Positions 14,834-45,070 are shown, counted from the first letter of the stretch. The stretch is 49,641 bases of DNA from a virus (IMGVR_UViG_3300050191_000028:1-49641); one strand, 5' to 3'. The notes: generated by a model from the sequence alone, not told the origin. A program made the numbers and translations.

Positions 14834-15073
14834 ATGGCAAACATTAGGTGGGCGAGAGGTCGCCGAGGTCACGGTCCGTACCGCTGCTTCAGCTGTTTGT
14901 TTGCACCAGTACCTAAGAACAAACCATGTTTAAACTGTGGATCACTTAAACGTGAGCCCTATATAAAAGCTGACCGCTATGCTAATGCTAAAACTGTCGA
15001 TAGAGGTGACAACAAACGCAGGTGCCGTGCAGGACCAGGATGCCCAATATGTAAGGAGTTAGATGATGCTTAA
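14834..15073 (+). CDS. Zinc-ribbon protein, first early gene
   Basis: 79 residues from the ATG at 14834 (GAGAGGA upstream). Cys pairs CFSC near 19 and CLNC near 33 and a distal CPIC near 72 indicate one or two zinc sites. The N-terminus is basic (MANIRWARGRRGHG). Position directly behind the early promoter suggests a regulator or RNA-binding helper. It overlaps the RNA ligase start by 11 bases. Confidence 0.65.
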   Translation: MANIRWARGRRGHGPYRCFSCLFAPVPKNKPCLNCGSLKREPYIKADRYANAKTVDRGDNKRRCRAGPGCPICKELDDA

Positions 15074-15890
15074 TTTCCCCGAGTACCATAAGATACAAGG
15101 CTTGTATAAGCGTGACGATAAAGGTAACTTCATACTCGGTGACTATAGCTTAGATTGCTTTAGATACCTAGAAAATAGTGTATGGCAGTGGACCGAGAAG
15201 GTAGACGGCACTAACATACGCATATACATAGACCCTAAGGTAGAGGCACAAGAGCTAAGCGATAACATTAGTCCACCCTTTATAGTTGAGCCAGAGATAA
15301 CTATTGGCGGTCATCATAACAATAGTCAGATACCACCAATACTTAAGTTCAACCTAGACGTTATATTCGGGCCTGATAACTTCGACCGCATGCAAGATAC
15401 ACTAGAAGGTCCTGTCGTTCTATACGGTGAGGGGTTTGGTGGTAAGATACAGAGCGGCCATGGCATTTATGGTTATCCTCTTGAGCCTAGCTTCATACTG
15501 TTTGATGTATGGGTGCCAGACTCACGCAATCGTATCGGCGGATACTGGCTCGACTATGACAGCGTAAGCGAGATTGCCATTGGGCTTAATATACCTCAAG
15601 TCCCCACCGCTACCGTTAATGGTAGTGTCATTGGACTGGCAACACTTAAGCAGGCCGTGTATGACGTTAGATACCATGGTATTCCTAGCTTGTGCGGTCG
15701 TGCTGGTGCTCAGGCTGAAGGTATAGTAGGTACACCTAAGGTGCCACTATTCGATAGGAGAGGTCGCCGCATTATCACCAAGCTAAAGGCTAAGGACTTC
15801 GATTTTCTTAAGGGAGATACTACATACACCGTAGATACAAACGGCCCGCCATTTGACAAAAGAGCCGAGGTACGATACCCTGTTGTTTAG
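15063..15890 (+). CDS. RNA ligase (Rnl2-like nucleotidyltransferase)
   Basis: 275 residues. Nucleotidyltransferase motifs run in order: I, EKVDGTNIRIY with the adenylated Lys46; III, LYGEGFGG near 122; IIIa, FILFDVW near 145; IV, AEGIVG near 222; V, IITKLKAKDF near 239. This is the set of ATP-dependent RNA ligases that seal 3'-OH/5'-phosphate nicks and, in T4, repair cleaved tRNA. No kinase-phosphatase partner is seen in the window. This matters because the hammerheads downstream would leave 5'-OH and cyclic-phosphate ends that such a ligase cannot join alone. Confidence 0.85.
   Translation: MMLNFPEYHKIQGLYKRDDKGNFILGDYSLDCFRYLENSVWQWTEKVDGTNIRIYIDPKVEAQELSDNISPPFIVEPEITIGGHHNNSQIPPILKFNLDVIFGPDNFDRMQDTLEGPVVLYGEGFGGKIQSGHGIYGYPLEPSFILFDVWVPDSRNRIGGYWLDYDSVSEIAIGLNIPQVPTATVNGSVIGLATLKQAVYDVRYHGIPSLCGRAGAQAEGIVGTPKVPLFDRRGRRIITKLKAKDFDFLKGDTTYTVDTNGPPFDKRAEVRYPVV
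15853..15881 (+). promoter_or_regulatory. Phage promoter inside RNA ligase 3' end
   Basis: TTGACA, 17-base spacer, TACCCT and GTTGTTT, followed by GAGGAGG and the ATG at 15904. It overlaps the last codons and stop of the ligase gene. Confidence 0.78.
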
Positions 15891-36499: not shown

Positions 36500-36837
36500 C
36501 TGCGAATAAAGATTACTGCATAGTTTGCCATGAGTCTATACCCATAAAGCGACATGGCTGGTTTACTTGCTCTATTATTTGTAGTAAAGAGCGGCAAAGA
36601 AAAGGATTTGATCCCGATCTCTTACGGGCCATCGCTAACTATATTGAGTGTTTCTCTACCGGCGCTCCGTATAATCTAGGTATTTCGGAGCCGAAGAGGG
36701 CCATGCAAGAAAGTCCAGATAAGACTCCTGGGGTTTTACCTCTAGAATCACTTGAGGCTGTTTTAACCGCCGAGGCTGACCAGCAGTACCTAGAAAGCCT
36801 AGACAAGCTCCTGAGCTATTCTAGGGGCCTCTCGTGA
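36496..36837 (+). CDS. Zinc-binding hypothetical protein
   Basis: 113 residues. CIVCHESIPIKRHGWFTCSI followed by ICSKERQRK is a zinc-ribbon/MYM-like finger as seen in phage and IS-related HNH-less zinc proteins. A C-terminal acidic helix follows. It overlaps the WhiB start by four bases and may belong to the same regulatory pair. Confidence 0.55.
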   Translation: MTANKDYCIVCHESIPIKRHGWFTCSIICSKERQRKGFDPDLLRAIANYIECFSTGAPYNLGISEPKRAMQESPDKTPGVLPLESLEAVLTAEADQQYLESLDKLLSYSRGLS

Positions 36838-37082
36838 GCACTAGATGGGTTAGGCGGGCAGCTTGCCGAGAGCTTGATACTGGCCTGTTCTTTGCATCTG
36901 AGCGGAGCGCAGATACCAAGCAGGCCCTGGCTGTCTGCGCCGGCTGCCCGGTACGCCGAGAGTGCCTAGATTGGATCACCGAGCTAGAACAGGACGAGAC
37001 AGATCCGGCCTGCATCGTAGGAGTATGGGGCGGACTTACCGCCAAGGACCGACAAGAGAGGAAACGAAATGACCGCACCTAA
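36834..37082 (+). CDS. whiB: WhiB-family regulator
   Basis: 82 residues from a GTG. It has the four conserved cysteines Cys11, Cys35, Cys38 and Cys44 (AACRELD; AVCAGCPVRRECLDW), which hold a 4Fe-4S cluster, and the GVWGGLT turn at 63-69, followed by a basic end (KDRQERKRNDR). WhiB proteins occur only in Actinobacteria and their phages. They bind region 4 of the host sigma factor; phage WhiB is known to act in superinfection control and host gene control. It is the penultimate gene before the ornate ncRNA promoter. Confidence 0.92.
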   Translation: MSTRWVRRAACRELDTGLFFASERSADTKQALAVCAGCPVRRECLDWITELEQDETDPACIVGVWGGLTAKDRQERKRNDRT

Positions 37083-37714: not shown

Positions 37715-37743
37715 TTGACAGTGATACGCCAGACGTGTACCCT
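37715..37743 (+). promoter_or_regulatory. Phage promoter for ncRNA and ribozyme block
   Basis: TTGACA, 17-base spacer, TACCCT, then GTTGTTTG. No other promoter of this type appears before the terminator at 45029-45070, so it probably drives the ornate RNA and all ribozyme-separated genes. Confidence 0.78.
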
Positions 37744-38061
37744 GTTGTTTGTAGGAGGCGGTCCGGTTGGTGCGGTCCCCCAGGTTTTCAGTAACCAGGG
37801 TCCAGCCGGGGGTGCCGGTGGAGCAGGTGTCACAGCCATCCTAGCGCAGGTCGCAATGCGACGACCGGCCAGCGGGGAAGATCCGCAAGCGGAAGTTAGA
37901 GAGTCCTTCCGAAGGCGGCGAAAGCCGGGCAAAACAAGGGCAGTTGCGTTTACGGCCTTGTACCTAAGCACACGAGACTCGGCTGGGCGATCCTTGAAGC
38001 CCAGTATTTTCCAACAAACGGCTGACTTTGTGTGGAATGGCCTTACCCGTGCAAGCGGGTA

Positions 38062-38162
38062 GGGCCACTAGAGGTTAGGTGACTTGGCAAGCGGGCGTAA
38101 CCGCTGTTCGCGACAACGGGTAGCACTGTGACGATCCCAAGTCACCTAGCCTCTACTGGCCC
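38062..38162 (+). repeat. Long hairpin in ornate RNA
   Basis: Arms 38062-38087 and 38137-38162 pair over 26 positions with two exceptions, one of them G-U. Part of the left arm (CTAGAGGTTAGGT) recurs as ATTAGAGGTTAGGT at about 38170-38183, giving an alternative pairing partner for the right arm. Confidence 0.8.
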
Positions 38163-38392
38163 TAGAGCCATTAGAGGTTAGGTAGTGGTGCGGTAGCAAG
38201 TAGGGTGGAGTCAGGACCTTGATGGTCCTTGCCGACGAGTACGAAGGCCCATCCGAAGGAAACACAAGACGTGTACGCACACTGTACGGGCCGACCGAGC
38301 GACGATAAACTACTCGGGCGCCGTGATAAGAACGAGGTACTCTCCGGGCCTTCCTCCAACAGGAGGCTAGCCGGCAAGGGTGAGAAGTCTTA

Positions 38393-38593
38393 TGTTTCCT
38401 ACTGTCTGACAACAGACAACTGCTACAGGAGTGACTAGTCCGGCTGAAGTGCTGTAACGACCGGGTGATCCGAGGCACCGCTCCTGCGGACAGTAGGGAA
38501 CACAAGCGACTACAGGGCAAAAGGCGAACCGTGCGCACGGCAAGCCTACGTGTTACCGATCCCGCTTGTGTTTCCTACTGTCTGACAACAGAC
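38393..38593 (+). repeat. 25-base direct repeat in ornate RNA
   Basis: TGTTTCCTACTGTCTGACAA followed by CAGAC occurs at 38393-38417 and 38569-38593. Each copy carries its own small hairpin (GTCTG-ACAA-CAGAC) and also forms the 3' arm of a larger stem (with 38258-38270 and 38489-38508 respectively). Confidence 0.85.
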
Positions 38594-38839
38594 TAAGGAA
38601 AGTCTGAAGATTACAGTGCATGGCTATAACGTGCCTACGGGCATCTAACGCTGGACACTTCAGACAAACAAAGGGTTCTGGCCGTTTAACCACGAGCCAT
38701 GACAGCCAACGCCATCCTCTGCCCCCGATTGTACGGGGAGATGCTAGGGATGGTTCACTCGGCGCTTGCGCCGTAGCCACCGGAAGGTACGCCGGAGGGA
38801 GTGTGGGAGGCCAGAATCCCCAACAAATGAAAGGGTAAA

Positions 38840-38989
38840 GTGAAACAGTACAGCGTAGAAATACACCGGTCTTTGGGCCAGGTGTTCGCTACCGTCGTTG
38901 ACCACGATGGTCGAATAGTCAAGTCATTCCAAGGGAATGAGCGTGAGCAGGCGTCACGGCTCCGTGACAAACTCAACGAGGACGAATAA
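38840..38989 (+). CDS. Small hypothetical protein, first gene of ribozyme block
   Basis: 49 residues from a GTG (MKQYSVEIHRSLGQVFATVV...), with the AATGAAAGGG ribosome-site string typical of this block. A beta hairpin then a charged helix. It ends one base before the first hammerhead. No family is recognised. Confidence 0.6.
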   Translation: MKQYSVEIHRSLGQVFATVVDHDGRIVKSFQGNEREQASRLRDKLNEDE

Positions 38990-38990
38990 A

Positions 38991-39049
38991 GTCGAAACGC
39001 CGTGAGGCGTCTGCCAGGGCTAGCCTACTGGCACTGATGAGACAGGCTA
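38991..39049 (+). ncRNA. Hammerhead ribozyme 1 (type II)
   Basis: Order 5'-3': GUC-GAAA at 38991-38997; stem III ACGCC/GGCGU with a GTGA loop; cleavage triplet GUC ending at 39011; stem I TGCCAG/CTGGCA (39012-39017, 39028-39033); core CUGAUGA at 39034-39040; GAC at 39041-39043, pairing with the opening GUC as a 3-bp stem II. Loop I TAGCCT (39021-39026) pairs with AGGCTA (39044-39049). Confidence 0.9.
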
Positions 39050-39071
39050 CCAAACGACGAAAGGCAATGAA

Positions 39072-39251
39072 ATGTTGGACGATCTCATAACCGACATGCT
39101 CGCCTTTAAAAACAGCGAGAACGAGGCCCGGTTTACCGGCGACCTCGAAGGCGTCGATTACTGGCGCTTTGCGCATGATGCCGCTCACAACGACCTTAAC
39201 GCTCTTGTCAGTGTCACTGACAAGATCCGTTTGGCGTTTCGAGCGGCATAG
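39072..39251 (+). CDS. Hypothetical protein
   Basis: 59 residues (MLDDLITDMLAFKNSENEAR...), mostly helical with Ala/His-rich middle. The ATG at 39072 follows GAAAGG with seven bases between. Its TAG stop shares its G with hammerhead 2. No family is recognised. Confidence 0.6.
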   Translation: MLDDLITDMLAFKNSENEARFTGDLEGVDYWRFAHDAAHNDLNALVSVTDKIRLAFRAA

Positions 39252-39333
39252 TCGAAACTGCGTTACCCCTCTTATAAGGGGGGGTAATGCAGTCTGCCGG
39301 ATCCGGCCCGCCCGTCACTGATGAGACAGGGCC
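39251..39333 (+). ncRNA. Hammerhead ribozyme 2 (type II)
   Basis: GUC-GAAA at 39251-39257; long stem III ACTGCGTTACCCC/GGGGTAATGCAGT with one G-U pair; GUC ending at 39294; stem I TGCCGG/CCGTCA with one mismatch; CUGAUGA at 39318-39324; GAC 39325-39327. Loop I GGCCC (39305-39309) pairs with GGGCC (39329-39333). Confidence 0.9.
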
Positions 39334-39352
39334 ACAATGAAAGGACATGCAA

Positions 39353-39574
39353 ATGTTTACCATCAAGGCCATTCCGGTTAGCCGGGGCTTCATAGTGGTA
39401 GACGAGACTGGATCGAACGTTGCCATTGGCAACGACATGCGGCCAGCACGCACGGACGTTGCCTTGACCTTCGAGTCTGAGAGTGACGCTCTTGCTGCCG
39501 CTAACCAACTCAACGGTGTCACCCGCACTGCCAACAGTGTCCGTGACGGCCAATGGGTAGGTCGGTTCAGCTAG
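39353..39574 (+). CDS. Hypothetical protein
   Basis: 73 residues (MFTIKAIPVSRGFIVVDETG...). Alternating strands then a helix (ESESDALAAANQLNG). An ATG two codons upstream is too close to GAAAGGA. The TAG stop overlaps hammerhead 3. No family is recognised. Confidence 0.6.
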   Translation: MFTIKAIPVSRGFIVVDETGSNVAIGNDMRPARTDVALTFESESDALAAANQLNGVTRTANSVRDGQWVGRFS

Positions 39575-39681
39575 TCGAAACTTGCTAAGCAGCGGACGTT
39601 ACGTCACGTCCGGTGGGATTACTCACCCGCTGCTTAGCAAGTCTGCCGGGGCTAGCCGCCCTGCACTGATGAGACAGGCTA
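39574..39681 (+). ncRNA. Hammerhead ribozyme 3 (type II)
   Basis: GUC-GAAA at 39574-39580; stem III ACTTGCTAAGCAGC/GCTGCTTAGCAAGT, whose end is branched by an inner hairpin (GGACGT/ACGTCC); GUC ending at 39643; stem I TGCCGGG/CCCTGCA with one mismatch; CUGAUGA at 39666-39672; GAC. Loop I TAGCC (39653-39657) pairs with GGCTA (39677-39681). Confidence 0.9.
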
Positions 39682-39701
39682 CCTAGAAAGGGAAACAAAC
39701 A

Positions 39702-40001
39702 ATGGACATCTACTGCCCAAAGTGTGGCGAGCCATGGGACTTCGATAGCCTCCATGAGCAAGTTGCCATCGTGATTGACGACCGTGATGGTAGGCCATAC
39801 GATCAGCTTTTCGATGCTGTCCGTGAAGACTTCTATCGTGATGGTTGCAAAGCCTTTGGGAGTCCCTGTACGGGGATCTCTGACACGAGCGTAGACAGCA
39901 CGTTCGGCCTTACAAAAGCTGAGGCAGCCTCCGCTATGTATGATCTCCTCGGAGATGACATAGACGGCGCTGCCGCTATGCTGGACGATTTGAACTGGTA
40001 A
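39702..40001 (+). CDS. Zinc-motif hypothetical protein
   Basis: 99 residues. CPKCGEPWDF at 5-14 is half of a zinc site, with further Cys near 50 and 56 (GCKAFGSPC). The tail is an acidic helix (KAEAASAMYDLLGDDIDGAA). GAAAGGGAAAC lies before the ATG. Confidence 0.62.
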   Translation: MDIYCPKCGEPWDFDSLHEQVAIVIDDRDGRPYDQLFDAVREDFYRDGCKAFGSPCTGISDTSVDSTFGLTKAEAASAMYDLLGDDIDGAAAMLDDLNW

Positions 40002-40006
40002 CACCA

Positions 40007-40100
40007 GTCGAAACTTGCTAGAGGTAAGCAGGCCCCAACGGGCGTTCCGCCTCTAGCAAGTCTGCCGGGAATGGTCGCCCGGTACCGATGAGACAGACCA
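40007..40100 (+). ncRNA. Hammerhead ribozyme 4 (CCGAUGA variant)
   Basis: GUC-GAAA at 40007-40013; stem III ACTTGCTAGAGG/CCTCTAGCAAGT region; GUC ending at 40062; stem I TGCCGGG/CCCGGTA; core strand is CCGAUGA (40085-40091) in place of CUGAUGA; GAC. Loop I TGGTC (40072-40076) pairs with GACCA (40096-40100). Confidence 0.82.
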
Positions 40101-40120
40101 CCTTTGAAAGGGAAAAGACA

Positions 40121-40357
40121 ATGGCAAAGTGCTCAATGACCCGTATGCACTTTCAGCGTATAGCTGAGATTACCGGCGAGCAGATAGCAAACCTGGACAT
40201 AAACGACGTTTGGGCTAGGCGCCTTATCGACACTGCGGTTAGTGGCCTTCGGGGTACGAATGGCAGCTTCGATAGTCGGCGTTTCAGCGCCGAGTGCTAC
40301 AAGCAAGCCGGCCTGAATGGCTGGCTCTGCGATGCCGAGAAGGCGCTTACGGATTGA
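40121..40357 (+). CDS. Hypothetical protein
   Basis: 78 residues from MAKCSMTRMHFQRIAEITGE, with GAAAGGGAAAAG upstream. Helical with two distal Cys (AECYKQAGLNGWLCDAEK). Its 3' end encodes part of the degenerate hammerhead 5. No family is recognised. Confidence 0.62.
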   Translation: MAKCSMTRMHFQRIAEITGEQIANLDINDVWARRLIDTAVSGLRGTNGSFDSRRFSAECYKQAGLNGWLCDAEKALTD

Positions 40358-40383
40358 GATTCCGGTACCGATGAGACTCTCAA
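40335..40383 (+). ncRNA. Degenerate hammerhead 5
   Basis: CCGAUGA-GAC (40368-40377), stem I TACGG/CCGGTA with one missing base, and the pseudoknot TTGAGA (40354-40359) with TCTCAA (40378-40383) are kept. The GUC-GAAA strand, stem III and the cleavage triplet are not recognisable; they are replaced by the coding end of the upstream gene. Probably uncut, so the genes at 40121 and 40400 stay on one mRNA, but the 5' pseudoknot may still act on translation. Confidence 0.5.
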
Positions 40384-40399
40384 ATGAAAGGGAAACAAA

Positions 40400-40606
40400 A
40401 TGAGACAAGGTTTTGTCCAGGCGACTGTCGTAATCGACAAGCCGCAAACTGGCGCAGTCTCTACGAAGTCCTCGATAGCTCAGATAGTTGACGAGGCATA
40501 CTTCGGTGGCACCCCATGCACCGACAGTTACTCCGTGTCCTTTAAGGATTCGGATTGTGGCGGCTACCCTGACAACAGCCGCACGCAGTTTGGACGTTTT
40601 AGATAG
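40400..40606 (+). CDS. Hypothetical protein
   Basis: 68 residues (MRQGFVQATVVIDKPQTGAV...), beta-rich, with Cys, Ser and Asp-rich second half. GAAAGGGAAAC upstream; the TAG stop overlaps hammerhead 6. No family is recognised. Confidence 0.6.
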   Translation: MRQGFVQATVVIDKPQTGAVSTKSSIAQIVDEAYFGGTPCTDSYSVSFKDSDCGGYPDNSRTQFGRFR

Positions 40607-40689
40607 TCGAAACAACCTTACGTAAGCTCAAGCCTTACGTAAGGTTGTCCGGTAAGGTTGACTACCTTATCGCTGATGAGACAAGTCAA
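40606..40689 (+). ncRNA. Hammerhead ribozyme 6 (type II)
   Basis: GUC-GAAA at 40606-40612; stem III ACAACCTTACGTAAG/CTTACGTAAGGTTGT; GUC ending at 40649; stem I CGGTAAGG/CCTTATCG with one G-U; CUGAUGA at 40673-40679; GAC. Loop I TTGACT (40658-40663) pairs with AGTCAA (40684-40689). Confidence 0.92.
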
Positions 40690-40705
40690 ACGAAAGGGAA
40701 ACGTA

Positions 40706-41029
40706 ATGGATACAAAGAGGATGAGCGCTGCCCAGAAGTTTGAGGCATCGCATCCGTTTGACCTGATGGAGCCTGATTACCCTCTCTCCTATACGGGTGA
40801 GAGCACAGGTTGGAATAACCCCAACCTTACTGACAAGCAGTGGCGTCGGATCGTGGAGAAGTGCCAGGCATCTCCTAACCGTTGGATCACTCAGAAGACC
40901 GGCAAAGACCGGCTAGAACTGAGCATGCCAACCCCCCATAAGGCGAGTCAGATCCAGAGTCGTTATGCGAGTAACGGCCTGGAAATCATGCTCGGCAAGG
41001 GCGAGATATACGCTCGGGTGCAGCGCTAG
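40706..41029 (+). CDS. Hypothetical protein
   Basis: 107 residues from MDTKRMSAAQKFEASHPFDL. Mixed, with a Trp-rich middle (GWNNPNLTDKQWRRIVEKCQ) and a C-terminal strand-helix part. GAAAGGGAAAC upstream; TAG stop overlaps hammerhead 7. No family is recognised. Confidence 0.62.
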   Translation: MDTKRMSAAQKFEASHPFDLMEPDYPLSYTGESTGWNNPNLTDKQWRRIVEKCQASPNRWITQKTGKDRLELSMPTPHKASQIQSRYASNGLEIMLGKGEIYARVQR

Positions 41030-41093
41030 TCGAAACGGGGTCACGGCGACCCCGTATACCGGATTGGTATTCCGGTACCGATGAGACTACCAA
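41029..41093 (+). ncRNA. Hammerhead ribozyme 7 (GUA, CCGAUGA variant)
   Basis: GUC-GAAA at 41029-41035; short stem III ACGGGGTC/GACCCCGT; cleavage triplet GUA ending at 41056; stem I TACCGG/CCGGTA; CCGAUGA at 41078-41084; GAC. Loop I TTGGTA (41064-41069) pairs with TACCAA (41088-41093). Confidence 0.82.
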
Positions 41094-41110
41094 ATGAAAG
41101 GGAAACAGCA

Positions 41111-41410
41111 ATGGCTTTTGATGAGGACGGCGTAACCGTCACCACAGACACTCATGAAAGAGTAAGCCAGGATCGACTCGAATGGTTCTGGTGTGCCGCA
41201 TCTCACGGCAGTCCTCGTGGCTTGTGGCAGCTTGATGTAGGTCCTATATATAATCACGGTCGGTTCGAGCATTTGTTTCCCGAGCCGTTCGGACATGCCA
41301 ATCAGAAACTCAGCAAGATCCGGCCTCCGATCACCGTCGATTACTGTAAAACGCATAACCCAGTTACAGGCGTACCCTGGGATAAGTCGCCTCGAAAAGG
41401 AGCACACTAA
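41111..41410 (+). CDS. Hypothetical protein
   Basis: 99 residues (MAFDEDGVTVTTDTHERVSQ...). The middle has His and Trp residues, and the end is basic (PWDKSPRKGAH). It overlaps the next start by one base, so the two genes share an mRNA. No family is recognised. Confidence 0.6.
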   Translation: MAFDEDGVTVTTDTHERVSQDRLEWFWCAASHGSPRGLWQLDVGPIYNHGRFEHLFPEPFGHANQKLSKIRPPITVDYCKTHNPVTGVPWDKSPRKGAH

Positions 41411-41562
41411 TGCCTGAGCTAATAGACAGCCTTCTCGATGAGCTAGTCAGGTTGGACTGCGACGATGATCTTGTCGTGTACGATATCCGAAGGATCCTAG
41501 AGGGATACCTCGGAGAGGTTGAGGAGTATATCGACAGCATGCCGAGAAACTCCGTGCTGTAA
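41410..41562 (+). CDS. Small acidic helical protein
   Basis: 50 residues (MPELIDSLLDELVRLDCDDD...), very acidic and helical. It follows the previous gene by a TAATG overlap and ends three bases before hammerhead 8. Confidence 0.55.
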   Translation: MPELIDSLLDELVRLDCDDDLVVYDIRRILEGYLGEVEEYIDSMPRNSVL

Positions 41563-41565
41563 CAA

Positions 41566-41652
41566 GTCGAAACTAGCGGAGGTAAGTGGCCTTGATAGGC
41601 TGGCCTCCGCTAGTCTACCGGACTGGTATTCCGGTACCGATGAGACTACCAA
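41566..41652 (+). ncRNA. Hammerhead ribozyme 8 (CCGAUGA variant)
   Basis: GUC-GAAA at 41566-41572; stem III ACTAGCGGAGG/CCTCCGCTAGT; GUC ending at 41615; stem I TACCGG/CCGGTA; CCGAUGA at 41637-41643; GAC. Loop I TGGTA (41624-41628) pairs with TACCA (41647-41651). Confidence 0.83.
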
Positions 41653-41666
41653 ATGAAAGGAACACC

Positions 41667-42044
41667 ATGGATAGGCGAGACTTCGCTCATGACGATTTTT
41701 CAGAATGGGCGCAGAACTATCTAGCGGATCACCCCGACGTGCGGCGCATACCGACCATAAAGGCCATATGCCCGTCCTGCGGGGGTGAGGGTAGGTACGT
41801 AAACCCTTCCATAGATTCCAACGGTATCACTGCCGATGAGATGTATGAGTTGGGTGATGACTTCCGAGATGACTATATGTCGGGAGTTTACGATGTCGAG
41901 TGCCAGGAATGCCACGGAGCAAATGTCGTGGATTGTCTGGACGAGACAGCGCCCATAAGGATGCAGTATTCGTGGGCAGACTGGGAACGGTCGGTCTATG
42001 AGATGCGCTGCGAGCGTGACGCCGAGAGGCGGATGGGTGCTTAA
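41667..42044 (+). CDS. DnaJ-type zinc finger protein
   Basis: 125 residues from the ATG at 41667 (GAAAGGAAC upstream). CPSCGGEGRY near 36-45 and CQECHGANVVDC near 80-92 form the paired C-x2-C-x-G units of DnaJ-like zinc fingers. Acidic and Trp/Arg-rich end. It could bind unfolded protein or RNA; function unknown. Confidence 0.65.
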   Translation: MDRRDFAHDDFSEWAQNYLADHPDVRRIPTIKAICPSCGGEGRYVNPSIDSNGITADEMYELGDDFRDDYMSGVYDVECQECHGANVVDCLDETAPIRMQYSWADWERSVYEMRCERDAERRMGA

Positions 42045-42264
42045 CATTTACGAGTTTCCAAACACCATGCAGTCGCACACTAAAGCGGTTGTGTATTCTG
42101 TACCTACTGATCCCGAGATAGATGACAGTATGACCATTGCAGAGATTGCTGTAGCTCTTGGTCTACTTCGTAAAGATACTCTTAAGGCGTTACGCAAAGA
42201 GTTTGCACCAATACGGCCACCAGTAAAACGGGGGACGTGGATACCCGCTTACCTAAGGGGGTGA
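42037..42264 (+). CDS. Putative helix-turn-helix protein
   Basis: 75 residues from the GTG at 42037 (GAGAGG seven bases upstream); an ATG start at 42067 is possible. The segment MTIAEIAVALGLLRKDTLKA followed by LRKEFAPIRP resembles an excisionase/MerR-type helix-turn-helix. It overlaps the previous gene by eight bases, and shares its transcript with the next gene. Confidence 0.55.
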   Translation: MLNIYEFPNTMQSHTKAVVYSVPTDPEIDDSMTIAEIAVALGLLRKDTLKALRKEFAPIRPPVKRGTWIPAYLRG

Positions 42265-42265
42265 C

Positions 42266-42454
42266 ATGAAATACAAGTACGGCCCACCAACCGAGCCGGG
42301 CGAGGAGCGAGAAATGCTCCCAGTCCGTAAGGGCTCAAGACAGCAAAAGGACGGGCGTTTGCCCGCCGATCTTCTACGCTCCTTGCACCCTAGCATTCGG
42401 CACTACGTGCCGGCAATGCTCTTAGCTGACGCTCTTAAAAAGGCTTCGGCCTAG
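42266..42454 (+). CDS. Hypothetical basic protein
   Basis: 62 residues (MKYKYGPPTEPGEEREMLPV...), basic, with a helical end (LLADALKKASA). The TAG stop overlaps hammerhead 9. No family is recognised. Confidence 0.55.
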   Translation: MKYKYGPPTEPGEEREMLPVRKGSRQQKDGRLPADLLRSLHPSIRHYVPAMLLADALKKASA

Positions 42455-42552
42455 TCGAAACCCCGCTGCCCAATAGGGCGGTGACAGTAGTCCGAAAGGG
42501 TCACTGCGGGGTCTATCGGGACTTGACCGCCCGGTACTGATGAGACAGGTCA
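42454..42552 (+). ncRNA. Hammerhead ribozyme 9 (type II)
   Basis: GUC-GAAA at 42454-42460; stem III ACCCCGC/GCGGGGT carrying an inner hairpin domain (TGCCCaatagGGC, then GTGAC/GTCAC); GUC ending at 42513; stem I TATCGGG/CCCGGTA; CUGAUGA at 42537-42543; GAC. Loop I TGACC (42524-42528) pairs with GGTCA (42548-42552). Confidence 0.9.
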
Positions 42553-42570
42553 CAATGAAAGGATAAACCA

Positions 42571-42801
42571 ATGGCAAAAGAGCCAGTGGAGTATGGACTT
42601 ACCGATGCATTGCCAGCTAGTGTCCGTGGCGATGGCGGTAGAGTCAAGACGTTTACCGATGCGGCTGACGCCAATCCCGGCAAGTATGTCACCTTTGGTG
42701 GCTTTGCCCCGAAGACGCTCGGTCCTATCATTACTACCTTGCGCAGGCGAGGGTATGACGCTGCACAGCGCAGTGGGGTCCTGTACGTAAAGCAGGGCTA
42801 A
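42571..42801 (+). CDS. Hypothetical protein
   Basis: 76 residues (MAKEPVEYGLTDALPASVRG...). Strand-helix-strand pattern ending GYDAAQRSGVLYVKQG; small alpha/beta fold. GAAAGGATAAAC before the ATG. No family is recognised. Confidence 0.6.
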   Translation: MAKEPVEYGLTDALPASVRGDGGRVKTFTDAADANPGKYVTFGGFAPKTLGPIITTLRRRGYDAAQRSGVLYVKQG

Positions 42802-42858
42802 GTGCGCCATATGGCACGCCGGTTAGCCGACTGGTACTGGCGTCGATACACCATATAG
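42802..42858 (+). CDS. 18-residue aromatic-basic peptide (possible)
   Basis: A GTG frame directly after the previous TAA encodes MRHMARRLADWYWRRYTI and ends in a TAG that overlaps hammerhead 10, the same stop/ribozyme arrangement as six larger genes. The composition (Arg, Trp, Tyr) would suit a membrane or RNA-binding peptide. Weak ribosome site. Confidence 0.4.
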   Translation: MRHMARRLADWYWRRYTI

Positions 42859-42955
42859 TCGAAAGGTGACATAGCATTAGCGGCCGAATAACGCCACTTT
42901 CTGCTATGTCGCCTCTATCGGGACTTGACCGCCCGGTACTGATGAGACAGGTTAA
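42858..42955 (+). ncRNA. Hammerhead ribozyme 10 (CUC triplet)
   Basis: GUC-GAAA at 42858-42864; stem III AGGTGACATAGCA/TGCTATGTCGCCT with one G-U pair; cleavage triplet CUC ending at 42915; stem I TATCGGG/CCCGGTA; CUGAUGA at 42939-42945; GAC. Loop I TTGACC (42925-42930) pairs with GGTTAA (42950-42955) with one G-U; this loop equals that of copy 9, while the 3' strand differs. Confidence 0.88.
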
Positions 42956-42970
42956 CGAAAGGGAAACAAA

Positions 42971-43213
42971 ATGGATGAGTTTGATTATCTCTATATTCAA
43001 GCTCTTATTGACAACGGTAACGCCTGGATGCTAGAGGGCTCCGTTGGCCGTATGTGCATGGACGCTATCCAATCCGGGTATGCAATGCTCGGTGAGAAAA
43101 GTCACCGTGACTACTATGGCAACATCATACCTTCACGGTACGAAGTGCAACCTGGTACACCAGGATCCCCGGAGTACTACGAGAAAACGCAGGAGGATAT
43201 TGACAATGCGTGA
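42971..43213 (+). CDS. Hypothetical acidic protein
   Basis: 80 residues (MDEFDYLYIQALIDNGNAWM...), acidic and Tyr-rich. GAAAGGGAAAC upstream. It overlaps the membrane peptide gene by eight bases. No family is recognised. Confidence 0.6.
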   Translation: MDEFDYLYIQALIDNGNAWMLEGSVGRMCMDAIQSGYAMLGEKSHRDYYGNIIPSRYEVQPGTPGSPEYYEKTQEDIDNA

Positions 43214-43313
43214 GACACTGCACTGGCTCGCCATTGGCGGGGCAGCAGCGCTTCTGTTCTTTGCCTTTTGGGTATGGGATAGAATCGTCGCCCCCTTTGA
43301 TGGCGGCAAGTAA
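43206..43313 (+). CDS. 35-residue membrane peptide
   Basis: MRETLHWLAIGGAAALLFFA then FWVWDRIVAPFDGGK: a single transmembrane helix with short polar ends. Coupled to the upstream gene; hammerhead 11 begins four bases after its stop. Confidence 0.55.
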   Translation: MRETLHWLAIGGAAALLFFAFWVWDRIVAPFDGGK

Positions 43314-43316
43314 ATA

Positions 43317-43455
43317 GTCGAAACTGATCGAGCCGCTGACGGCTCTGCCCCAGATTGTACTGGGAGATGCTAGGTCGTCACGGAGTATAAACCGGTGAGG
43401 TACCGGCTCGGTCAGTCTGCGAGACTTGACCGCCTTGCACTGATGAGATAGGTCA
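43317..43455 (+). ncRNA. Hammerhead ribozyme 11 (enlarged stem III)
   Basis: GUC-GAAA at 43317-43323; stem III ACTGATCGAGCCG/CGGCTCGGTCAGT, which encloses a multi-branched domain with the ATTGTA hairpin motif also present in the ornate RNA; GUC ending at 43417; stem I TGCGAG/CTTGCA; CUGAUGA at 43440-43446; stem II strand is GAU (G-U with GUC). Loop I TGACC (43427-43431) pairs with GGTCA (43451-43455). Confidence 0.88.
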
Positions 43456-43474
43456 CAATGAAAGGGAAAACAAT

Positions 43475-44335
43475 ATGCGTAACAAACTGATAGCCATAGG
43501 ACTGGGTATCGCCCTCGTCCTCGGAAGTGCTGGGGCTGCGTTTGCAGCTAACCCCAATGCCGGCCAGAAGCCGACCACGCCATACAAGGCGTGTGCGACC
43601 CTTCAGGGCGTCATCAACGCATTCCCGAGCCGCCTGGGTGTCTGCCCTGTCAACTCCAACCTCGTGACCATCAATCCGAACGGTGGAGCGCAAGGCACTC
43701 CTGGCGTCAATGGAACTAACGGCACTAACGGTGCCAATGGTTCTGTCGGCCCAGTCGGACCTGCGGGCACTAACGGCACCGATGGTATCAATGGAAAAAA
43801 CGGCCACAGGGGTCGTACCGGCGCTACGGGTAAAACGGGAGCAGTTGGACCTGCCGAGCTGGAAAGCTGGGAATCTTGTGTTCCGTCCCTTTGTATTGAC
43901 ACTCCTCCCGCCGGTGGCGGGTCTGGTGGCTGGGGCTGGAACCCTGAGGTTGGCAATGTCACGTCACTGAATGTAGGGGATATTTACCCCTTCACTGTGA
44001 CTGCCATTCAGAACGGCCCTGAGTACTTTACGGGGACCGTTACGCTGACCTGGAACCCCAATGACTTCAACCTTATCGAAGCCGCTGGGTTCTCCTTCCA
44101 GTATCCATTGTCAGTCTCTCCGGGGTCTGACTCAGCAACATTCACCTACGGGGCATTTAGCCACGTAGATAAGAGCGTCAGCTTCTCCTTCGAGGCGCTG
44201 AACGATAACCCATCAGCTCTCGTCACTGCGACCGTCACTACTGGCGGACATTGTGTCGATGGTGGGTTTGTCGTTAACCCGGCTGCTGTTGCCTCCGAGA
44301 CATTCCCGGTGGCGATTGTTGGGTCCGCTGCATAA
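43475..44335 (+). CDS. Secreted collagen-like protein
   Basis: 286 residues. MRNKLIAIGLGIALVLGSAG followed by AAFAANPN is a clear Sec signal peptide with an Ala-x-Ala cleavage site near residue 27. A Cys-containing segment (KACATL...GVCPVN) is followed by about 20 Gly-x-y triplets (GTPGVNGTNGTNGANG..., GHRGRTGATGKTGAVG) and a C-terminal beta-sandwich-like domain (100-plus residues). A secreted phage protein made outside the structural operon is unusual. It could alter the host surface. It lies between hammerheads 11 and 12, so it has its own mRNA. Confidence 0.75.
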   Translation: MRNKLIAIGLGIALVLGSAGAAFAANPNAGQKPTTPYKACATLQGVINAFPSRLGVCPVNSNLVTINPNGGAQGTPGVNGTNGTNGANGSVGPVGPAGTNGTDGINGKNGHRGRTGATGKTGAVGPAELESWESCVPSLCIDTPPAGGGSGGWGWNPEVGNVTSLNVGDIYPFTVTAIQNGPEYFTGTVTLTWNPNDFNLIEAAGFSFQYPLSVSPGSDSATFTYGAFSHVDKSVSFSFEALNDNPSALVTATVTTGGHCVDGGFVVNPAAVASETFPVAIVGSAA

Positions 44336-44340
44336 CCAAA

Positions 44341-44434
44341 GTCGAAACTTGCTAGGGGTAAGCTACAGCTTCGGAGGCATTCCGACCCTAGCAAGTCTGA
44401 GGGACTGGCATTCCCTTACTGATGAGACTGCCAA
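44341..44434 (+). ncRNA. Hammerhead ribozyme 12 (type II)
   Basis: GUC-GAAA at 44341-44347; stem III ACTTGCTAGGG/CCCTAGCAAGT with inner hairpin; GUC ending at 44397; stem I TGAGGG/CCCTTA with one G-U; CUGAUGA at 44419-44425; GAC. Loop I TGGCA (44406-44410) pairs with TGCCA (44429-44433). Last copy before the terminator. Confidence 0.91.
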
Positions 44435-44448
44435 AGAAAGGGATAACA

Positions 44449-44523
44449 ATGGAAGTGTTTGCGTTTATATGCGTCTTTACCGCGGGCTTTTTGATTGGCG
44501 TTTGTGCAGGACCACGGCGATGA
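44449..44523 (+). CDS. 24-residue membrane peptide
   Basis: MEVFAFICVFTAGFLIGVCA then GPRR: one transmembrane helix with a basic end. GAAAGGGATAAC before the ATG; ATGA overlap with the next gene. Confidence 0.5.
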   Translation: MEVFAFICVFTAGFLIGVCAGPRR

Positions 44524-44693
44524 TAAATCCATTTGATCGTAGACAAGCGGAGCACGACGACACCATAAAGCTAGACTGGCGAGATCCACACAGCACAGGC
44601 CGCAGGGCTTATGACCTAGTGTGGGTTCCTATAGATGGTGTCGAACAGTGGACTCCCCGCTACATAGCAAGAGAGGAACCTAGTGTCACGTAA
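44520..44693 (+). CDS. Hypothetical MINPF protein
   Basis: 57 residues (MINPFDRRQAEHDDTIKLDW...). The MINPF start is shared with the 17471-17653 product. Acidic/basic mixed, Trp-rich end. No family is recognised. Confidence 0.55.
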   Translation: MINPFDRRQAEHDDTIKLDWRDPHSTGRRAYDLVWVPIDGVEQWTPRYIAREEPSVT

Positions 44694-44934
44694 GCACAAT
44701 ACCAAGCATTCCCGCTCGCCGTCGAACTACCCCGAGCGCCTGGCGGCTCGTGGCATTGGCTCAAGGTCCGTTAAGATGATTGACTTTGTACCAGTGCCCA
44801 GTCACCCGACGCCCGGCTTCGACGGCAAACGTCCAACGCAGGATCAACTAGATAGGGTCAAAGCCATAAGGGCTTTGAACTATCCTAACCCCGAGGCCGA
44901 GATCGGCATTGGGGGTAGGCCGGACGTTAGTTAA
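44683..44934 (+). CDS. Hypothetical basic protein, last rightward gene
   Basis: 83 residues from a GTG (MSRKHNTKHSRSPSNYPERL...), strongly basic start, then a Pro/Gly-rich acidic end. It overlaps the previous gene by 11 bases. It ends about 95 bases before the terminator. No family is recognised. Confidence 0.55.
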   Translation: MSRKHNTKHSRSPSNYPERLAARGIGSRSVKMIDFVPVPSHPTPGFDGKRPTQDQLDRVKAIRALNYPNPEAEIGIGGRPDVS

Positions 44935-45028
44935 TCCTGCCCACTCCGTACCGGTCGCTGTCAAAAGCGTTTTCGTCGGGCGCAGTGGGACGGGCCGGTA
45001 ACCTGGCGGGAGAGAAATCCCGCATAAC
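44935..45028 (+). other. Structured 3' leader of terminator
   Basis: The stretch contains several pairings: CCCACT with AGTGGG, TACCGG with CCGGTA, CGCT/AGCG, and a GCGGGA/TCCCGC hairpin just before the terminator. No GAAA or CUGAUGA core is present, so it is not another hammerhead. Confidence 0.4.
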
Positions 45029-45070
45029 AAAAGCCCCCTCCGAGTGTCGATCTCGGAGGGGGCTTTTTTA
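45029..45070. terminator. Bidirectional intrinsic terminator
   Basis: A perfect 16-bp stem, AAAAGCCCCCTCCGAG with CTCGGAGGGGGCTTTT, and a seven-base loop. T-runs follow on the plus strand, and a shorter one on the minus strand. It separates the rightward ribozyme block from the converging leftward lysis genes. Confidence 0.95.

Follow-up and report, generated by a model that had tools for sequence, protein, structure and literature searches.

Most type II hammerhead ribozymes have a pseudoknot between loop I and the 3′ tail. The cutting of a polycistronic phage transcript between genes is familiar from T7, whose early mRNA is processed by RNase III and whose products carry 3′ ends on hairpins; T7 relies on a host protein enzyme for this step, whereas the RNA considered here would cut itself. 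The closest described system is that of Perreault et al. (2011; PMC3088659), who reported clustered type II hammerheads in prophages, where they flank single genes or short gene blocks, and proposed that they process transcripts into single-gene messages; three tandem sets cut in vitro, and one triple arrangement cut in E. coli. An engineered counterpart is the RiboJ insulator, an sTRSV hammerhead and a hairpin placed before the ribosome-binding site (PMC6206723, PMC8794103), which in E. coli increased the protein level two- to tenfold and doubled that of the transcript (PMC6206723). The openly accessible literature, preprints excepted, yielded no subsequent work on arrays of this kind.

The window analysed here is one entire IMG/VR record (IMGVR_UViG_3300050191_000028, 49,641 nt). 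It has in common with the prophage clusters of PMC3088659 the type II fold with the loop I/tail pseudoknot and the presence of several hammerheads (HHRs) flanking genes in one phage transcription unit; it differs in that eleven HHRs occupy one operon, one per spaced junction, with stop codons that abut or overlap them, and in that a diverged relative carries a syntenic set of nine. A sequence-only reading of this DNA had called a dense serial array used for operon processing unusual, which is half right: Perreault et al. had described clusters and put forward the processing idea in 2011 (PMC3088659), and arrays of 8 to 28 occur in other phages. The array in the window is large, stands in strict register with its genes and recurs in unrelated phages, and its kind has been known since 2011; no size record over the clusters of PMC3088659 is claimed. 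The likeness to RiboJ is one of analogy, in that a hammerhead would strip upstream sequence while a 5′ hairpin stays directly before the ribosome-binding site, and the RiboJ-like order of predicted cut, hairpin and ribosome-binding site is present in the window elements. RiboJ, however, is of viral satellite RNA origin and is used in one copy after a promoter, whereas the window has many type II copies between genes that would also make 3′ ends. Retrozymes and viroid-like circular RNAs are not matched, since the units between the cuts are different genes and the ribozymes vary from copy to copy.

The structural genes of the phage lie on the minus strand and its replication genes on the plus strand, from about 15 kb; the array operon, also on the plus strand, is placed between the replication genes and opposing genes. 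A WhiB regulator gene (36834-37082) and the similarity of the terminase to those of Streptomyces phage Shaeky (42%) and Gordonia phage GMA4 (49%) indicate that the host is probably an actinobacterium. An RNA ligase gene is found at 15063-15890 (PF09414, E 3.5e-17), and the isolated Thermobifida phage P318 (MK240575.1) annotates one too. The operon comprises nineteen mostly small genes (38840-44934), almost all without assigned function, among them one for a collagen-like secreted protein (43475-44335). The array had been placed between one promoter and one terminator; the terminator is clear, an intrinsic one with a 16-bp stem and a T run that closes the operon at 45029-45067, but the single promoter rests on a weak match, TTGACA-N17-TACCCT at 37717-37745 on the plus strand. 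This candidate, read from its sequence, is plausible; a consensus promoter scan, whose matches were no better than those in shuffles, missed it. The 48 nt just upstream of it are 81% identical to a related phage contig (IMGVR_UViG_3300048503_000003, hereafter L135), which shares a promoter-proximal stretch and the 20-nt CTACTGTCTGACAACAGACA with the window.

Between the candidate promoter and the first array gene lies a structured leader of about 1.1 kb (37750-38830, plus strand) that contains no convincing gene and is possibly a phage long noncoding RNA. It has 28-bp and 20-bp inverted repeats; its counterpart in L135 (15090-15570) is shorter and mostly dissimilar, and the leader motif TGCNNNNGATTGTACNNNNGAGATGCTA has zero copies in IMG/VR. 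The motif CTGCCCC-N-GATTGTAC-N'-GGGAGATGCTAGG is present in the leader (38718-38750) and inside stem III of HHR 10 (43338-43368), with N-N' switching from C-G to A-T between the two copies, and looks like an embedded, putative binding motif; IMG/VR yielded no copy of it. Directly before the operon terminator, GCGTTTTCGTCGGGCGC is kept in both phages (window 44965-44985, L135 20910-20930) and is a possible small RNA or signal.

All eleven elements lie on the plus strand, within 5.4 kb and ahead of the one terminator, and they follow the order that the sequence-only reading had given: GUC-GAAA, stem III, cleavage triplet, stem I, CYGAUGA, GAC. The triplets (GTC in nine elements, GTA at 41054-41056 and CTC at 42913-42915) are as it had stated them, and the eleven cut positions predicted from the sequence are identical to its list. 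HHR 1 (38990-39051), with a predicted cut after 39011, scores 36.7 bits with Rfam; HHR 2 (39250-39335; 39294) has a mismatch in stem I and a competing fold, and HHR 3 (39573-39683; 39643) has a long stem III. The CCGATGA core, with C at position 4 (C4), is found in HHR 4 (40006-40102; predicted cut after 40062), HHR 6 (41028-41095; 41056, the GTA triplet) and HHR 7 (41565-41654; 41615). HHR 5 (40605-40690) and HHR 11 (44340-44436) would be cut after 40649 and 44397, and HHR 8 (42453-42554) after 42513. The CTC triplet of HHR 9 (42857-42956; predicted cut after 42915) is paired with a compensating G that follows GAAA in place of C. HHR 10 (43316-43457; 43417) has a stem III of 94 nt, in which the motif shared with the leader is embedded; R1, a covariance model built from the eleven copies, aligned just 43384-43457 of this element. 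A half-element at 40333-40385 (plus strand, 10.2 bits) consists of a stem I hairpin, CCGATGA, GAC and the pseudoknot, and contains the stop codon of gene 40121-40357; as it has neither GAAA nor stem III, it should not cut.

The assignment to type II, with stems I and III closed and stem II open, holds in pairing and covariation for all eleven copies. Stem pairs are kept in 96.6% of cells and double changes occur in 12 of 16 pairs, a level of covariation that none of 500 shuffles reaches and no slid register comes near. A structural descriptor matched 11 places on the plus strand of the window and none on the minus strand; 100 Markov sequences as long as the window gave no match at all. The pseudoknot between loop I and the 3′ tail (5-6 bp), which had escaped the earlier reading and is also described for type II hammerheads in PMC3088659, is present in all eleven elements and was matched by none of 10,000 permutations. 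The catalytic core (CUGANGA, GAAA, NUH triplet) is intact in eight elements; in HHR 4, 6 and 7 it reads CCGAUGA, the C in place of U at position 4 being the only departure from an otherwise invariant core. Stem III pairs in every copy, as had been claimed, but its sequence is not fully different between copies, because HHR 3, 4 and 11 (39574, 40007, 44341) have the outer arm ACTTGCTA in common; its length is 14-94 nt in the window versus about 17-25 nt in other arrays. Beyond their shared arms, HHR 4 and 11 also have the inner motif GGTAAGC...RTTCCG in common. When the pseudoknot is left out, stem I is predicted with a probability close to zero in HHR 2 and HHR 10 and with a low one in HHR 7, so that folding predictions suggest that these three may be slow.

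Two scans proposed by the sequence-only reading differ in their weight. The elements share the fold and core of the Rfam family RF02276 (Hammerhead_II), yet two of the eleven exceed its gathering cut-off of 37 bits (HHR 4 with 48.2 and HHR 8 with 41.4 bits); nine fall below it, four of them at E<0.01 (30-37 bits). This is partly due to long stems III and C4 cores, and standard annotation would consequently miss most of the array. The model R1 recovers all eleven (E 7e-16 to 5e-8), a result that is circular, since the same elements were used to build it; the independent evidence consists of Rfam, the covariation and the non-circular structural descriptor. The family RF00163 gave no match in the window, and none in its controls either. 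A chance origin of the elements is ruled out by the covariation, the pseudoknot permutations and the register statistics, and the analysis of the sequence confirms the eleven elements as real type II hammerheads.

The elements stand between consecutive genes, as had been proposed, with one at each spaced junction. Eleven of the eighteen gene junctions in the operon bear an HHR and one (gap 42 nt) bears the half-element; these are all the junctions with gaps above 22 nt. The remaining six, where the genes are tightly coupled (-8 to +22 nt), have neither. Five of the window elements begin on the G that closes a UAG stop codon. The same register was found among 212 distinct HHRs that were sampled from viral contigs with a pattern of fixed form, GTCGAAAC...GAC: in 155 of them the end of the upstream stop codon falls between -6 and +1 nt relative to the ribozyme, versus 32 of 1000 shifted positions. 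From the predicted cut to the start codon the median distance is 56 nt (interquartile range 52-61) in the 212 viral HHRs, and the range is 51-60 nt in the ten window elements that were scored; a start codon with a ribosome-binding site is present near 24% of random positions, so that the informative feature of the start is its tight spacing rather than its presence. Cores of the CCGATGA type recur in natural arrays, namely in HHR 4, 6 and 7 of the window, at 16860 in L135, and in 57 other contigs (59 pattern matches, some of which may be due to chance). One scan had been set to C4 cores, so that these counts are no measure of their frequency. C4 cores occupy the same stop register as normal cores in 31 of 43 cases, which argues that such cores are probably tolerated.

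L135, the primase of which is 65% identical to that of the window, carries nine HHRs in syntenic position; a ribosome-binding site and a start codon come after each of them, and their cores read CTGATGA, CTGACGA, CTGAAGA and CCGATGA. Three of the nineteen array genes have a match in L135. A faster turnover of array genes was considered on the grounds of this ratio (3/19 versus 16/26 for replication genes), but it is not claimed, as the difference is not significant for proteins under 130 aa (3/18 versus 5/15). Model R1 detected further arrays of 28 (IMGVR_UViG_3300033551_000003), 12 (IMGVR_UViG_3300006104_000014), 11 (IMGVR_UViG_3300040801_000321) and 8 HHRs (IMGVR_UViG_3300008255_000242). The array proteins of these four contigs have no similarity to each other or to those of the window at E<1e-4, and the DNA of the window array and of four other array regions has none to 50,697 phage records; HHRs in terminase relatives were uninformative, those contigs being fragments. 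An Acidimicrobiaceae metagenome-assembled genome, a cellular assembly, has four HHRs in the same gene register, and phage P318 has two type II HHRs around one gene, orf49, for which cuts on the minus strand are predicted after 44765 and 44057. Sixteen type II HHRs, six of them in about 2.8 kb of one contig, were observed in the assembly of a methanotrophic gill symbiont of Bathymodiolus japonicus. Stem II varies inside other arrays (GC/GC and GTC/GAC in array L318; GGTC and GTC types in L135). Lone 3′ halves were flagged in L318 and L320; to the eye, most of these resemble complete HHRs in which an extra base follows the core. Elements of one phage resemble each other more closely than they resemble those of other phages, so that arrays probably grow by duplication.

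We consider it likely, on the evidence of the sequence, that the type II HHRs cut one polycistronic phage transcript into short messages, each with a standardised leader. The eleven HHRs would divide the nascent operon RNA into twelve units that hold one, two or three genes each, every cut probably being made when the ribozyme folds in the wake of RNA polymerase; mono- and dicistronic units had been foreseen, but tricistronic units are also predicted. The 3′ end of each upstream unit would be a stem III hairpin with a 2′,3′-cyclic phosphate, at most about 100 nt past the last stop codon, and the downstream unit would begin with a 5′-OH and a stem I hairpin that the pseudoknot keeps in place, followed by the ribosome-binding site and the start codon. 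Type II identity, the predicted self-cutting into short messages and the predicted 5′-OH and stem III-hairpin ends are well supported by the sequence itself, the covariation, the register with the genes and the synteny. By analogy with RiboJ, the array may insulate each gene behind a uniform leader and protect the ends of its message, regardless of the sequence upstream.

It is unlikely, by contrast, that the HHRs cut but are selected solely for their 3′ product, whose stem I/pseudoknot structure would serve as a leader for translation or stability that cutting exposes. The half-element would fit such a function, as it retains exactly the 3′ half, the pseudoknot and the ribosome-binding site without the catalytic 5′ half; it is, however, the one convincing case in the window, and the other eleven elements retain GAAA and a covarying stem III, both superfluous for a mere leader. 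Less probable still is the circularisation or shuffling of cassettes, in which the two ends of one cassette would come together as a hybrid hammerhead and be ligated, yielding circular or spliced RNA. A hybrid of this kind could form, because stem I and stem III are each a closed hairpin and all eleven elements share a GUC/GAC stem II, and PMC3088659 had considered that products might be ligated. Perreault et al., however, report no spliced or circular products (PMC3088659), stem II is non-uniform in the other arrays L318 and L135, and an RNA ligase (PF09414) occurs in just one of 50 HHR contigs, being absent from L135 and the other large arrays; coupling to the phage ligase at 15063-15890 as a general feature was rejected on this count. 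Neutral or selfish repeats, spread between genes by duplication and mostly inactive, would account for the greater likeness of elements within a phage, but are about as improbable as circularisation in view of a core invariant except at position 4, the compensation seen in 12 of 16 stem pairs, the exact stop/start register in unrelated phages, the synteny in L135, and homologues of gene 39702 in five contigs where R1 detects no HHR.

If the self-processing reading of the operon is taken further, operon-wide ribozyme processing may be a general expression architecture in unrelated phages, with a ribozyme at each spaced junction (eleven here, up to 28 elsewhere) yielding plug-in insulated messages independent of host nucleases; we advance this wider proposal tentatively, at slightly less than an even chance. 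With most copies below the Rfam cut-off, such arrays are probably under-annotated. The role of bacterial and phage hammerheads has been a question since their discovery in 2011. What is added here beyond the 2011 work is scale, strict register and conservation: the stop/start register, together with conservation in a relative and recurrence, turns this question into a concrete hypothesis of self-processing and insulation, with exact RNA ends to be sought, and such arrays could provide natural insulator parts.
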